DNA of 64,000 nt, taken from positions 248,001 to 312,000 of the forward strand of contig JAFSOA010000001.1 of NCBI GenBank assembly GCA_017447265.1. Direction: 5' to 3'. Shown one piece after another: positions 38,079 through 42,792 of this stretch (position 1 is the first letter of the stretch; the number at the start of each line of letters is the position of its first letter). The notes under the pieces were generated by a model. It did not search any database. It saw nothing but the letters and a program-made list of their open reading frames with translations, and had not been told where the DNA came from. Source of the DNA: Bacteroidales bacterium. Lineage in GTDB: Bacteria > Bacteroidota > Bacteroidia > Bacteroidales > UBA932. The position numbers were made by a program, and so were the translations under genes.

Positions 38079-38226
38079 GTCCGCCAATCTGTGACACCTG
38101 TGATGCGGTTATGCTACTGCCAGCGTCGCAAAGCGTGGAACGACCCCCTCGGTACAGGGGGTCGTTCCACGCTCAGTGAAGAATGCTGCATACAGACTGC
38201 AAAGGTGGTGTCACAGATTGGTGGAC
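38079..38226. repeat. Family 1 palindromic element, copy 1 (148 bp)
   Basis: The outer arms GTCCGCCAATCTGTGACACC (38079-38098) and its near-perfect inverse (38207-38226) pair at 19 of 20 positions. A central hairpin has a 16-bp core stem that extends to a perfect 17 bp here (GCGTGGAACGACCCCCT at 38133-38149, inverse at 38156-38172, 6-nt loop). Both spacers between arm and core stem are 35 bp. The element ends 13 bp before the stop codon of the RAYT-like gene, which reads toward it. Other copies are at 41049 and 42645. Confidence 0.85.
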
Positions 38227-38239
38227 GGGGCCTCGATTA

Positions 38240-39139
38240 TCAGGTATATTTGCAGATTTCCTCGTAGGGGAGGCGGACGAGCAGGGCAAGTTGTCTTCGC
38301 GAGAGGCGATATTGCCGCCAGAGTTGCTGCGCCAGCTGGATCCGCTGTTGCCCGGTCAGACGACGGATGTCGCGGAAGCCAAACATCAACGCGCAGCGGT
38401 TGCCGCAGATGTTTCGCGCTTCGGGATCTTCGTAGACAACACCTCTGGCGGCTGCAAGTTGTTCCTTGGTCGCTTGCTGTTGTGCCCGGCTGCTGCCCAT
38501 GAAGGTCCGAAAGCAATTGGCTGTCCGGTAGATGCTTTCAAACATGGCTACATCGACGTAGTTGTCCGGCAGGATATATCCGTTGCAGATCAGCCAGTCG
38601 CCGGGTATGCTCATTCTGGAAAAACAGACCGCCCGTAAATTACGTGCGCCGATCTGGTCGGCTCGCACAGGTTGGTGGAAGGTACCGTCCGTGTCGAAAC
38701 ACCAGATGGGAATATGCCCATGGGAACGAAAATACATCGATCCTGTTCCCCTCCGGTCATCGTAGGGCATGATTCGTTTCCCGTCTTTGGAAGCCTGAAT
38801 GACGGTATAGGTGCCGACATTCATCAGATGGTTCTCATCTTTGATGTCCAGAAGGTCCAAGTCCAGAGTCAATTGAACCGGAGCCTTTCGCTTCCGCACG
38901 GCGTGATGCAGATAACTGCTCTCAAATAGATATTTGTATTCCATGCAGGCTTCACGTGTACCGTGCAGCAGGGTATGCGGGTGCGTATCCTCATGGCCGA
39001 AAGCCACGACCGTGACACCGGAATGAAAGGCACATACGCCGGTCAGGTTGAAAGCCGCCCGCTCATCCGCTTCAGAAAGGATGAATTCTTTGATGACAGC
39101 GCCGTCACCGGTCAGATGGTAAAAGGATTTGTACGACAT
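38240..39139 (-). CDS. Divergent RAYT-like (Y1/HUH) transposase-family protein
   Basis: A 299-residue protein. The N-terminal half follows the Y1 transposase pattern: FYHLTGDGAVIKEFILSEAD, then GVTVVAFGHEDTHPHTLLHG with the HxH metal motif (His53/His55), and a Tyr in the catalytic position (Tyr111 in NVGTYTVIQASKDGKRIMPY). The usual YIHLNPVRA block is replaced by this YTVIQASKD form. The C-terminal half has a helix-turn-helix-like end (YRLSRRQLALLVRLPYEEI). HUH enzymes of this kind nick REP-type hairpins at single-stranded DNA. A family 1 element lies at its 3' end. A -7 box precedes it. The assignment rests on motif order, not on close similarity. Confidence 0.65.
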   Translation of the reverse strand: MSYKSFYHLTGDGAVIKEFILSEADERAAFNLTGVCAFHSGVTVVAFGHEDTHPHTLLHGTREACMEYKYLFESSYLHHAVRKRKAPVQLTLDLDLLDIKDENHLMNVGTYTVIQASKDGKRIMPYDDRRGTGSMYFRSHGHIPIWCFDTDGTFHQPVRADQIGARNLRAVCFSRMSIPGDWLICNGYILPDNYVDVAMFESIYRTANCFRTFMGSSRAQQQATKEQLAAARGVVYEDPEARNICGNRCALMFGFRDIRRLTGQQRIQLAQQLWRQYRLSRRQLALLVRLPYEEICKYT

Positions 39140-39168
39140 GGTTCTCTCGCCTCAATCTTTCGTTGGTG

Positions 39169-39176
39169 CAAAGATA
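39169..39176 (-). promoter_or_regulatory. -7 box of the RAYT-like gene
   Basis: TATCTTTG on the minus strand, 29 nt before the ATG. Confidence 0.55.
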
Positions 39177-39242
39177 ATGACGGATTCCAAAAATACAGCC
39201 GCAAAAAAGCAAAATATGGTGGGGGTGTGTCGAAATATTGCG

Positions 39243-39250
39243 TATTTTTG
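39243..39250 (+). promoter_or_regulatory. -7 box of the CPBP protease gene
   Basis: TATTTTTG ending 4 nt before the ATG, so the transcript probably begins at the start codon. Confidence 0.58.
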
Positions 39251-39254
39251 AGCG

Positions 39255-40067
39255 ATGTTTCAACAGTTTCAATATTACAAGCCTGGTCTTGGCCAGTCGT
39301 GGCTGCTGGTCGCTCTGGTGATTGTGGGCAGCGTCGTCATGAGTCTCATTCTGCCGCACGCGCCCCAGTCGTTGTCGTATTTCCTGATGATGATGCTTCC
39401 GGTGGCTTTCTGCTGGTGGCAGGGCAACAATGCCCAGCTGGCCGGCGAGAAACCGCTTCCCGTCAATGCGCCGCATTTCGGCCGGCTGCATCCCGTGCTC
39501 TTTTTCCTGCTCGCCGGCATCGCCATGCTGGCGCTCAATGTCGTCATCGAGCCCACCACGACGTTTATCCCGATGCCCGACATCATCAAGGATGTTTTTG
39601 AAGCAGCGTTCATCAATTCGTCGCTGTGGGATGCGATCCTCTCCACCTGCATCCTGGCACCGATTCTGGAAGAGTTCCTCTGCCGGGGCATGATGCTTCG
39701 CGGCATGCTGCCGCAAAAGGGCGCGCGGAAAGCCATCCTCTGGTCGGCTTTCCTCTTCGCTTTCATGCACCTGAACCCCTGGCAATCCATACCGGCCTTC
39801 CTCATCGGCCTTTTCATGGGCTGGGTCTACTGGCGGACACACTGCCTCTGGGCCACTATTTTCATGCATTTCCTGAACAATGCGGTCTCCGTCATCATCT
39901 CCCGCATCTGGACAGACCTTCCTGTCGATGCAAGTCTGATGGACATACTCCCGCCGACCCAGTACTGGATCACCTACGCGGGCTGTATCGTAGTGGCAGC
40001 CGTATCACTCTATATCCTCTATGAAAAAACTCTACCCGTTAAAGTTTCATCCCCAGTGGATGCCTAA
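39255..40067 (+). CDS. CPBP-family intramembrane protease (CAAX protease-like)
   Basis: A 270-residue protein with about seven hydrophobic segments. The catalytic motifs are in order: APILEEFLCRGMMLRG (EExxxR, ~138-143), FLFAFMHLNPWQSIPAF (FxxxH) and IFMHFLNNAVSVI (HxxxN). In bacteria these proteases act on membrane substrates or confer bacteriocin self-immunity; the substrate here is unknown. It overlaps manA by 47 nt, an unusually long overlap for genes with no shared pathway. The -7 box is 4 nt before the ATG. Confidence 0.85.
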   Translation: MFQQFQYYKPGLGQSWLLVALVIVGSVVMSLILPHAPQSLSYFLMMMLPVAFCWWQGNNAQLAGEKPLPVNAPHFGRLHPVLFFLLAGIAMLALNVVIEPTTTFIPMPDIIKDVFEAAFINSSLWDAILSTCILAPILEEFLCRGMMLRGMLPQKGARKAILWSAFLFAFMHLNPWQSIPAFLIGLFMGWVYWRTHCLWATIFMHFLNNAVSVIISRIWTDLPVDASLMDILPPTQYWITYAGCIVVAAVSLYILYEKTLPVKVSSPVDA

Positions 40068-41025
40068 GGCCTGGGGCGGCGAATACTGGGACCTGTGCGG
40101 CTTTGAAGAGACGCCGTCGGTGGTCTCTGACGGCTATCTGGCCGATAACGATCTTCCCGACATTCTGGAAACCTACCTCGGCGATCTGGTGGGCGACGAA
40201 ATCTTCGACTGGCACAATCTCTATTTCCCGCTGCTGATCAAGCGTCTGATCGTGAAAGACCGCCTGTCGGTGCAGGTGCATCCCGACGACACGGTGGCCG
40301 CCGACCGCTTCGGCGAATTCGGCAAGACCGAATTCTGGTATGTCGTGGAAGCGGAGCCGGATGCCCGCATCTGGATGGGCTTCAAGGAAGACACCGATGC
40401 CGGAACGCTCTACAAGGCCTGCCACGATGGAACGGCCGACCAGTTGATGAACGCCTACAAGCCTCAGCCGGGTGACTGCTTTTTCATTCCTACGGGCACG
40501 GTCCATGCAGCAGGCGGCGGCTTGAAGATCGCCGAGATCCAGGAAGCTTCCGATATGACGTTCCGTCTTTATGACTGGGGCCGGGAATTCAATCCCGCCA
40601 CACGCCGCGAGATGCATCTCGACGAAGCCCTGGACTGCATCAACTACAAGAAATACAACGAAGCTGCCTGCAGCTGCCATCTGGAAACGGATCCCGTGAA
40701 GGCCGTCGAGAAGGGTGAAAGCGTGCGCGTCCTCGTGGAAGATCCGCATTTCGTCATCACAAGCCTCGCGCTGACCACGCCCGCCAGGGTCTCGATGGAG
40801 CCGTTCAAGAGTTGCGTGGTGTTTATCTGCCTGAAGGGCTCGGTGACGGTCGATGCCGGTGAAAGCCATACGACACTCCCGGCCGTCGAGGTCCTGCTCG
40901 TCCCTGCGTCTCTCGATACGGTGACGCTCACCCCTGCAGCCGATGGTGCGCACCTGCTGCAGGTCCATCTCCCTCAGCCTCCGAAAGACGACGTCTACGA
41001 CGGTCCGGAGCCGGATGCGCCGTAG
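40021..41025 (+). CDS. manA: Class I mannose-6-phosphate isomerase
   Basis: A 334-residue zinc enzyme converting mannose-6-phosphate to fructose-6-phosphate. Zinc-site motifs are LSVQVHPDDTVA (~82-93), FGKTEFWYVVEAEPDA and FIPTGTVHAAGGGLKIAEIQ, followed by SDMTFRLYDWGREF. It provides mannose units for polysaccharide or uses them from catabolism, and the GH92 alpha-mannosidase at the far end of the window would release mannose. Its start lies within the CPBP protease gene. A family 1 palindromic element begins 23 bp after its stop. Confidence 0.92.
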   Translation: MKKLYPLKFHPQWMPKAWGGEYWDLCGFEETPSVVSDGYLADNDLPDILETYLGDLVGDEIFDWHNLYFPLLIKRLIVKDRLSVQVHPDDTVAADRFGEFGKTEFWYVVEAEPDARIWMGFKEDTDAGTLYKACHDGTADQLMNAYKPQPGDCFFIPTGTVHAAGGGLKIAEIQEASDMTFRLYDWGREFNPATRREMHLDEALDCINYKKYNEAACSCHLETDPVKAVEKGESVRVLVEDPHFVITSLALTTPARVSMEPFKSCVVFICLKGSVTVDAGESHTTLPAVEVLLVPASLDTVTLTPAADGAHLLQVHLPQPPKDDVYDGPEPDAP

Positions 41026-41048
41026 TGTGACGACGGCATCCGACTGTT

Positions 41049-41196
41049 GTCCGCCATTCTGTGACACCAACGGTCGCGATCTGTCGTATCAGGCCAGGCA
41101 ATACGTGGAACGACCCCCTCAACTCAGGGGGTCGTTCCACGCTTATCAGCGGAGACCGTAATGAAAAGGCGTTAGGGGTGTCACAGATTGGCGAAC
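41049..41196. repeat. Family 1 palindromic element, copy 2 (148 bp)
   Basis: The outer arms are GTCCGCCATTCTGTGACACC (41049-41068) and its imperfect inverse (41177-41196). The central hairpin CGTGGAACGACCCCCT (41104-41119) pairs perfectly with 41126-41141 across a 6-nt loop. Both spacers are 35 bp but show no evident similarity to those of the other copies. It lies between the 3' ends of manA and the broken sialidase gene, so the hairpin may also act as a bidirectional terminator. Confidence 0.85.
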
Positions 41197-41221
41197 AGGC
41201 GCGATGATCGGATGGGTGAGG

Positions 41222-42604
41222 TTAGAAATTGGTTAGCGCGATCGCCTGAAAGGTGATGTGGGCCTGGGAGCTTTCGTAGAGGATGCCGACGGTGGCGGGA
41301 TCGATCATCGTGAGGCAGGAGTAGCCCCAGCCTTCGCCTTCGTCGAGGAGAATGGCTCCTGGCCAGGTAACGCCGCCGTCATAGCTGATGCGGAGCGTCA
41401 TGTTGCAGCGCTCCTTCGGGTCTGCCGGATTGGCAAACAGAAGTATGTCGCGTCCCAGACTGTTTTCTCTCTCCGGCACGTGCAGCAACGATGCCATGCA
41501 GACCGGATCGGGCAACTGTCCGTCAGCGACATGCTGCGTCCATGTCCTGCCCATGTTCCGCGTCTCATACATCGCTCGTCCCGTGCCGCGGTTGTCGCGG
41601 ATGCTGAGCAGCAACCGTCCGGGTCCGATCTCAGCCACCTGCGATTCCGTCGTATTGGTCTTGGCCGATGTGGAGACCTGCCAGGTCCGGCCATGGTCGC
41701 GGCTGTACATGATGCCGGCCTCCGGCGTCCGGTCCGGCTACTGATGTTGAAAGGGAACCATAAGCGTTCCGTCGGCCAACGTGATGCCGCGGCCTGGTGC
41801 CTGAAAGGTGAACAGCCACTGCGGCTGCTTGACTTGCCGCGTCAGGTTGACCGGCGTCGACCAGCTTCGGCCTTCATCCTGGGAACGGGCCATCAGCAAC
41901 TGCGGCGTATCGGCCGGTTCAAAGCCGTCACCGGCGCTCCACCAAGCCGTCTTGCCCCCCTTGCCGTGTACCCATGCTGCAAAGATCAGCAAATCACCCG
42001 TCGTCTCGTCGAGCAGGATGCAGGGGTCGCCCACGCCGTTCTCGGCACGCTGCAGTCCGCCGTATTCGCCCATCGTCATTGCAATCCGCATCGGTTCCCA
42101 GTGCAACCCGCCATCCGTCGAACGGCTCACGCCGATCTCGATGTCGCCTTGCAGGTCACGCGCGCTAGTATGCCGGATGTCGTAGACTGCTACCAGTGCG
42201 CCGCTGCGCGTGGTCACCAGCCCCGGGATCCGATAGGCAGCCACATTGTCATCGCCGCCGGTCCGGACGGCACGCGCCAGCCGGTGTTTCCGTTCTCCGG
42301 ACTCCTCGATCTGGCAGCCCCGCGCTTTCAGTTTGAGCAGGAACGGTTTGCTCAGGTCGCGCACATAACGGCTGTCAATATGCACAAACAGCAGCGAATC
42401 GCGCACGAAACTCCGGACAAGCGCCTTGCGCGGCAGACCGCATACCTTGCAGGACAATGCGGGCAACGCTTCGATGGCAGAAGTGTCCGCTCCGTCGACC
42501 ATGCGGACAACCGCCACGGCAACATCCTGGTCGAGCAACACCGGCACCTGCCGGTGTTGTACCTGCAGCATTACCGCCAGCAAAGAAACGAGGAAAGTCA
42601 GCAT
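41222..42604 (-). pseudogene. nanH: GH33 sialidase broken by an in-frame amber codon
   Basis: The frame from the ATG at 42604 runs 288 codons to a TAG at 41738-41740, then continues in the same frame for another 171 codons to the normal end. Together they make a complete GH33 sialidase: signal peptide, an N-terminal BNR-associated domain, the YRIP motif (~124-127), five Asp-box repeats (SRSTDGGLHW, ARSQDEGRSW, YSRDHGRTW, ETRNMGRTW, RISYDGGVTW) and the C-terminal GYSCL block with the expected catalytic Tyr. The stop falls before the third Asp box, so the first part alone lacks the active site. Only one substitution is needed to restore it. It has its own -7 box and is flanked by two family 1 elements. 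Confidence 0.85.
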
Positions 42605-42621
42605 GGAGGGTCTTTTTCTTA

Positions 42622-42629
42622 CAAAGATA
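42622..42629 (-). promoter_or_regulatory. -7 box of the sialidase gene
   Basis: TATCTTTG on the minus strand, 17 nt before the ATG. The upstream -33 region overlaps the left arm of family 1 copy 3. Confidence 0.55.
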
Positions 42630-42644
42630 ATAAAGACGGCGGAG

Positions 42645-42792
42645 ATTCGACAATTTGTGACACAGAAGACAAAGAAATAGCACATCTGACTGCGCTCAGC
42701 GTGGAACGCCCCTCTCTAGACAAGGGGTCGTTCCACGCCCGATGGCGTTGGCTATGAAGGGACGGCATGGATGGTGTCACAGATTGGCGGAG
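42645..42792. repeat. Family 1 palindromic element, copy 3 (148 bp)
   Basis: The right arm GGTGTCACAGATTGGCGGA (42773-42791) is intact. The left arm (42645-42664) is worn to about 15 of 20 matches. The central hairpin (42700-42737) keeps GTGGAACG / CGTTCCAC but lacks one A in the left strand. Despite this wear, total length and both 35-bp spacers equal those of the other copies. It lies upstream of the sialidase gene and 50 bp from the DivIC-type gene promoter. Confidence 0.8.

Follow-up and report, generated by a model that had tools for sequence, protein, structure and literature searches.

Three 148-bp palindromes of a Bacteroidales genome as probable REPIN-like units of a RAYT-type transposase

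Described systems closest to the locus

REPINs are inverted doublets of repetitive extragenic palindromic (REP) sequences with conserved ends, less conserved spacers and preferred distances, the latter described as 71 and 110 bp in Pseudomonas fluorescens SBW25 (PMC3116915). In the REPtrons of SBW25 and E. coli, such REPINs or bacterial interspersed mosaic elements (BIMEs) are linked to a low-copy gene for a REP-associated tyrosine transposase (RAYT), and each RAYT is described as having its own element type (PMC3116915, PMC6006769). The known RAYTs treated in PMC8266576 cut single-stranded REPs mostly between C and T near the stem, with the foot helping to choose the site. For subclass 2.6 of TnpA-Y1 (Bertels group 5), found mostly in Bacteroidetes, "atypical secondary structures" that lack GT[AG]G and recur elsewhere in the genome have been reported on the flanks of the RAYT genes (PMC6006769). 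Here we describe three 148-bp palindromes and an adjacent RAYT-like gene in 64,000 nucleotides (nt) of a Bacteroidales bacterium (UBA932; GCA_017447265.1, contig JAFSOA010000001.1, positions 248,001-312,000, forward strand), hereafter the window. The palindromes are probably REPIN-like units, non-autonomous and of low copy number, that belong to a RAYT-type transposase of Bacteroidales. The initial annotation of this DNA had missed the RAYT-like gene, and its statement that no element with this layout has been described was too strong, since REPINs are already inverted REP doublets with conserved ends and preferred distances (PMC3116915). No published description of this particular layout was found in the mostly open-access literature, supplements excluded, and we regard the elements and the gene as an unusual relative of REPIN/RAYT systems rather than a wholly new kind.

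The elements share with REPtrons the extragenic inverted doublet, the conserved ends and the preferred distances (PMC3116915), and in both cases they are linked to a RAYT gene of low copy number that has an element type to itself (PMC3116915, PMC6006769). They differ in the foot, which is GT[AG]G in REPtrons and here approximately TCCGCCAAAG in group I of the genes described below or CCCGAAAT in group II (the latter by eye), in having paired sites 37-41 nt apart and an outer arm stem with a central 16-bp hairpin, and in the 1-4 copies per genome of the window's subfamily. Subclass 2.6 has in common with them the flanking structures without GT[AG]G and the copies away from the gene; however, NH[LIV]H and YIH[QN]NP motifs and a median length of 179 amino acids (aa) are reported for it, compared with DTHPH, YTVIQ and 299 aa here (PMC6006769). 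The IS200/IS605 elements IS608 and ISDra2 likewise combine a Y1 HUH enzyme with folded single-stranded ends (PMC6006769, PMC8266576), but here the small units stand apart from the gene, and no mobile unit carrying the gene was demonstrated. Finally, the TIRYT/TIRtron has been described as a RAYT-like gene enclosed by inverted repeats that bear no relation to GTAG REPs (PMC3733652), whereas each flanking unit here is a composite palindrome that is also present away from the gene.

Geometry and spacing of the elements

The elements and the gene lie at the following positions of the window.

38079-38226: element copy 1; arm 38079-38098, spacer 38099-38133, hairpin 38134-38171 (loop 38150-38155), spacer 38172-38206, arm 38207-38226
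38240-39139, minus strand: divergent RAYT-like Y1 HUH protein of 299 aa (H53-P-H55, Y111, Q115), 13 bp from copy 1
41049-41196: element copy 2; arm 41049-41068, spacer 41069-41103, hairpin 41104-41141, spacer 41142-41176, arm 41177-41196
42645-42792: element copy 3, left arm worn; arm 42645-42664, spacer 42665-42699, hairpin 42700-42737, spacer 42738-42772, arm 42773-42792

Direct reading and a repeat search bore out the fixed geometry first reported for the three copies, each being composed of a 20-bp arm, a 35-bp spacer, a 38-bp hairpin, a second 35-bp spacer and a second 20-bp arm. The inner hairpin has a 6-nt loop and a 16-bp stem, which is free of mismatches in copies 1 and 2 but not in copy 3, and the outer arms are complementary at 95% (20 nt) in copy 1 and 90% (21 nt) in copy 2 and worn in copy 3. 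Single-strand folding of copies 1-3 gave z values of -11.0, -8.1 and -5.1 relative to shuffled sequences (0/200 shuffles each). The genome of the window (G000; 2.13 Mb in 19 contigs, 78.66% complete) holds only these three elements, as judged from a hairpin pattern and an arm pattern with up to three mismatches. Like REPINs, they are extragenic inverted doublets capable of forming hairpins: copy 1 lies between the convergent ends of an OmpA-like gene and the RAYT-like gene, copy 2 between those of mannose-6-phosphate isomerase and sialidase genes, and copy 3 is flanked by the sialidase and DivIC-like genes. Between copies 2 and 3, the sialidase-like gene (41222-42685, minus strand) is divided into two open frames, 41738-42685 and 41222-41710, both with BNR matches; its counterpart in a second genome, G023, is a single frame of 461 aa (L051:6982-8367).

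The same rigidity of spacing emerged from searches of 40 genomes of the genus. A search with two arm motifs allowed to lie 96-126 nt apart returned 10 elements in four genomes, nine of them 126 nt overall and one 125 nt, its one-base difference falling within the hairpin; the reversed-pattern control gave 0 matches. The distance from GTGACAC to GTGGAACG was exactly 37 nt in 23/23 half-sites from five genomes, with 26-56 nt allowed (reversed control, 3 matches). In a second subfamily, the two sites X and X' are 39 nt apart in 5/5 cases (24-54 allowed; reversed control, 0). A third, with the site TGACGTC, has 40 nt in 8/11 and 41 nt in 3/11 sites of G012 (22-52 allowed) and 40 nt in 4/5 sites of G031, and the remaining six of its 21 sites (40-51 nt) may be chance matches, the reversed control being 8. 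The window's subfamily comprises three copies each in G000 and G023, four in G001, one in G026 and one half in G036; a scan of a collection of species genomes that possibly did not include G000 (29-45 nt allowed) returned six stretches, all from G001, G023 and G026, and thus no new copies. The distances of 37, 39 and 40-41 nt in three subfamilies support the proposal of the initial annotation that spacer length is constrained by a protein in contact with both arm and hairpin.

The alternative put forward at the same time, that the spacers are actively replaced, is not supported. The G023 genome carries elements at the places of copies 1 and 2 (G23b and G23a, respectively). The two spacers of copy 1 are 33/35 and 25/35 identical to those of its orthologue and the two of copy 2 are 27/35 and 26/35 identical, in neither case with an indel; summed over both copies, 64/64 hairpin stem, 68/80 arm and 111/140 spacer positions agree. 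At one gene boundary shared by G001 and G023 (elements G01d and G23c), spacer identity is 8/35 and 18/35 with length unchanged. The six half-spacers of the window, which had been called dissimilar and do appear so by eye, have a mean in-register identity of 12.7/35 compared with 8.7 +/- 0.7 for random circular shifts (0/5000), and for 16 half-spacers of eight elements the values are 10.9 and 8.74 +/- 0.24 (0/5000), or 11.2 and 8.8 +/- 0.3 when G01d is omitted (0/5000); a set with one additional half-spacer agreed. Orthologous spacers align as ordinary diverged homologues, one of the two observations that the initial annotation had named as refuting it; the other, variable spacer length, was not seen. 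The lack of indels between orthologues and the in-register identity of paralogues argue against replacement and for drift under a constraint on length. The spacers had also been considered unpaired within a copy, and with in-register complementarity at 15, 6 and 10 of 35 positions in copies 1-3, copy 1 may pair slightly. A division of the spacers into two classes, as for a heterodimer, was not supported, the observed split being equal to the shuffled one.

The RAYT-like gene and its linkage to palindromes

The residues H53, H55 and Y111 are invariant in 26/26 aligned homologues of the window protein, and the position four residues after the tyrosine is Gln (17) or Asn (9). The alignment thus places an HUH motif and a catalytic tyrosine, as in RAYT proteins, and motifs of this kind define Y1 proteins in the motif table of PMC6006769. 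Six of the 26 family members matched the NCBIfam model REP_Tyr_transpos (NF047646; best 1.1e-7), in a table that does not name them, and six of 26 matched Pfam Y1_Tnp (PF01797; best E 0.0016, 19 bits, below the cut-off of 23); the PF01797-matching members checked individually belong to group II and lie below the cut-off. A relative in G064, from the same family, exceeds the Y1_Tnp cut-off with 24.7 bits. A profile search of the PDB gave four matches, one to an RNA helicase (E 1.1) and three over the HUH region to the transposase chains 2xo6, 2xm3 and 2xma (E 0.34-0.35), which we take to be ISDra2 TnpA.

Relatives of the gene were matched in 30/40 genomes of the genus. In G000 the gene is flanked by an element on its 3' side only, and in G001 a relative with 71% identity has an element on either side, one at a distance of 116 bp and the other only a few bases away. 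We surveyed this adjacency by scoring the 700-bp flanks of 67 RAYT-like genes of the genus for an inner stem with outer arms at about the window's distances, using a threshold of 21 that was chosen after a first look at the data. The 67 loci, 27 from a first set of 30 and 40 from a later one, come mainly from the top of a list of 115 matches and leave out fragments, L104, L115, L116, the strong matches G012:C12 and G000:C6 and about 20 weaker near-full-length ones; related loci among them (e.g., L181/L182) are not independent. The score was at least 21 in 57/133 flanks, with 38/67 genes having such a palindrome on at least one side and 19/67 on both, an arrangement like that of RAYT genes in REPtrons. 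Group I (39-71% identical, 24 genes) contributed 25/47 flanks, 15 genes on at least one side and 10 on both, and group II (16-31% identical, 43 genes) 32/86 flanks, 23 genes on at least one side and nine on both. The same score was reached by 1/266 shuffled flanks, 1/34 flanks of other genes and 4/224 tiles of genomic DNA, the tiles having been added because the 34 control flanks, from 17 loci, are mostly of what appears to be one orthologous gene and are partly coding. The foot of group I was matched at 7/10 or more positions by 47/60 halves; the alignment made use of the anchor but not of the TGTG that follows the anchor.

The other subfamilies have in the arm a site X that recurs as its reverse complement in the hairpin strand, with letters that differ from one subfamily to another (examples of X are GTGTGCGC, GTGTGCCC, GTGACGTCGG and TGCGGCAGG). 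Among 40 elements scoring at least 22, the arm 8-mer was complementary at 7/8 or more positions to its own hairpin strand in 48/80 halves, compared with 121/1540 swapped ones, in keeping with the REPIN rule that each RAYT has its own element type.

The palindromes may extend beyond the genus. The gene was matched in 27/149 genomes of the order (G000 included), and the only full-length match from another genus is that of G064. The flanks of 28 non-genus loci (L129-L154, L156 and L157) scored at least 21 in 6/56 cases, above the rate for tiles, and taken singly these are mostly low-complexity or overlapping repeats. At L129, the G064 locus, which represents another genus of the family, the RAYT-like gene is flanked by CGGACTAGGCGCA-like repeats in both orientations and with related spacing. 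Two further arrangements were seen beside RAYT genes. At L105:2700-3700 (G036:C39), four longer, near-identical palindromes about 280 bp apart, with arms further out, accompany a group II RAYT. In each of two species, two foot motifs lie 4,374 bp apart (G000:C10:925 and 5299; G026:C4:435 and 4809) on a contig with a nearby RAYT fragment, and each pair is possibly one larger unit.

Possible movement of the elements and competing explanations

Copy 2 aligns with its G023 orthologue only if one of the two is turned relative to its flanks (27 and 26 of 35 spacer positions vs 7 and 9). The orientation agrees within the pairs copy 1/G23b, G01a/G26 and G01d/G23c, for the last of them as judged on one spacer only, and one of four orthologous pairs compared is therefore inverted. 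Copy 3 is absent from G023, in which the site equals the joined G000 flanks in length across the junction with four mismatches (by eye); the difference may be either a gain or a loss. The RAYT-like gene of G000 separates copy 1 from a CPBP-protease gene, and G023 has none there. No target-site duplication was seen by eye within 12 bp around 10/11 copies, and copy 3 has GGCGGAG immediately beyond its left end as well as at its right end; the elements thus do not fit a miniature inverted-repeat transposable element (MITE) of a DDE transposon, with terminal inverted repeats and a target-site duplication.

Other possible sources of the elements were also considered. In G036, a half-decayed element has a truncated IstB gene as its neighbour (L056:9570-10030); IS21 was rejected as a parent, as only L062 (the G036 copy itself) among eight IstB loci (L057-L064) has arm motifs. 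Two weak or short hairpin-motif matches occur at L060, and, with the IstB loci spanning 2.5-3.7 kb, an end may lie outside them. An origin in phages or plasmids was likewise rejected, with no blastn match of copy 1 in either and no match of the element pattern in viral contigs; 53 stretches there matched a peptide pattern for RAYT relatives, and none was confirmed. A purine-gene site carries an element in both G026, where Cas9 and Cas1 genes lie just downstream (L055:10343-14855), and G001 (L053), where the genes are others.

Each unit is an inverted doublet, and we propose that each half consists of a foot (approximately TCCGCCAA), an adjoining recognition site (the arm), a spacer that keeps its length (35 nt here, with 37-41 nt from site to site in the measured subfamilies) and a second site formed by one side of the central hairpin. 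A strand that becomes single, for example as the lagging-strand template, would fold into the arm stem and the hairpin, which the cognate RAYT would contact together before cutting near the foot through its tyrosine, and it could then excise, re-insert or flip the unit. The spacer would merely bridge two points of contact, so that its length is kept and its letters drift. Binding of a folded single strand at arm and hairpin would account for fixed spacing with free letters, for linkage, for gene-specific sites and for movement as a unit, and we infer that the RAYT, rather than host recombination, may be the inverter. It is conceivable, if rather doubtful, that this is a separate single-strand DNA system of Bacteroidales, whose RAYT complex reads four alternating copies of one site (X, X', X, X') at ruler distance and, being symmetric, serves to flip the unit in place as well as to move it, which would make the units RAYT-driven invertible DNA. 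The picture of four identical sites holds for the relatives and not strictly for the window elements.

Several observations weigh against RAYT units of this kind. With 1-4 copies per genome, the elements lack the high copy number of canonical REPs; the foot GT[AG]G was not seen in them, the window hairpin starting with GTGG and those of other subfamilies differing. Within the subfamily of the window itself, the arm is complementary to the hairpin strand at only 5-6/8 positions, which is the level of swapped halves, and 29/67 surveyed loci had no such palindrome at the threshold. The window protein itself has no Pfam, NCBIfam or PDB match, and its AlphaFold model, from two sequences, is unusable with a predicted local distance difference test (pLDDT) of 40.9. 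The best gene matches in G023, G026 and G036, which are incomplete genomes, are 49%, 52% (partial) and 31% identical, though each holds elements of the subfamily, and the conservation of elements there is unexplained by a close RAYT. The inversion and the empty site each rest on one pair of metagenome-assembled genomes. Pairing within 11 elements, where 9/36 pairs have changed on both sides (covariation 0.123 vs 0.070 in shuffles, 0/500; 88.6% paired cells), is weakened by a control with partners offset by -1, which gave six pairs, 0.098 and 41.9% paired cells; related copies and the palindrome correction can add to the covariation signal.

The strongest competitor to the REPIN-like reading is a double-stranded regulatory or architectural site, at which a dimeric DNA-binding protein other than a RAYT contacts arm and hairpin halves and the elements are fixed in cis. 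Exact spacing and symmetry would suit a symmetric protein-DNA complex, as would the identity of stems (64/64) beside that of spacers (111/140) in copies 1 and 2 of G000 and G023, and elements do persist where no close RAYT was found; however, the linkage of genes and elements across subfamilies, the pairs within a copy in which both partners have changed, the presence/absence of copy 3 and the inversion make such a site improbable. Less probable still is an invertible switch for phase variation, in which a site-specific recombinase flips the 108-bp interior between the inverted arms and thereby turns a promoter. The arms of about 20 bp and the inverted copy 2 would fit, but only the one orthologous pair in four is inverted, the genes on either side of copies 1 and 2 converge on them, the neighbouring gene is of the Y1 HUH type and neither a tyrosine nor a serine recombinase, and the -7 promoter box of Bacteroidales, TANNTTTG, does not occur on either strand of the 11 elements. 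An RNA-level element (a bidirectional terminator, an mRNA stabiliser or an RNase target) has equally little in its favour, because the strong hairpin, the two-sided pair changes and the position of copies 1 and 2 at gene ends are offset by the linkage to RAYT genes, by the absence of a run of five T from either strand of the 11 elements and of any Rfam match at the gathering score in the window, and by the fact that a terminator needs no exact 35-nt stretch; a role in RNA may be a secondary use of the elements.

The reasons for which bacteria retain domesticated single-strand transposases, and the way in which these enzymes recognise their palindromes, are open questions that have been studied mainly in Proteobacteria. 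The Bacteroidales set adds a genus in which dozens of genes are paired with elements, with ruler-like spacing, site letters that follow the gene, an empty site and a change of orientation, and it offers natural substrates for how a RAYT measures distance and whether a RAYT inverts DNA.

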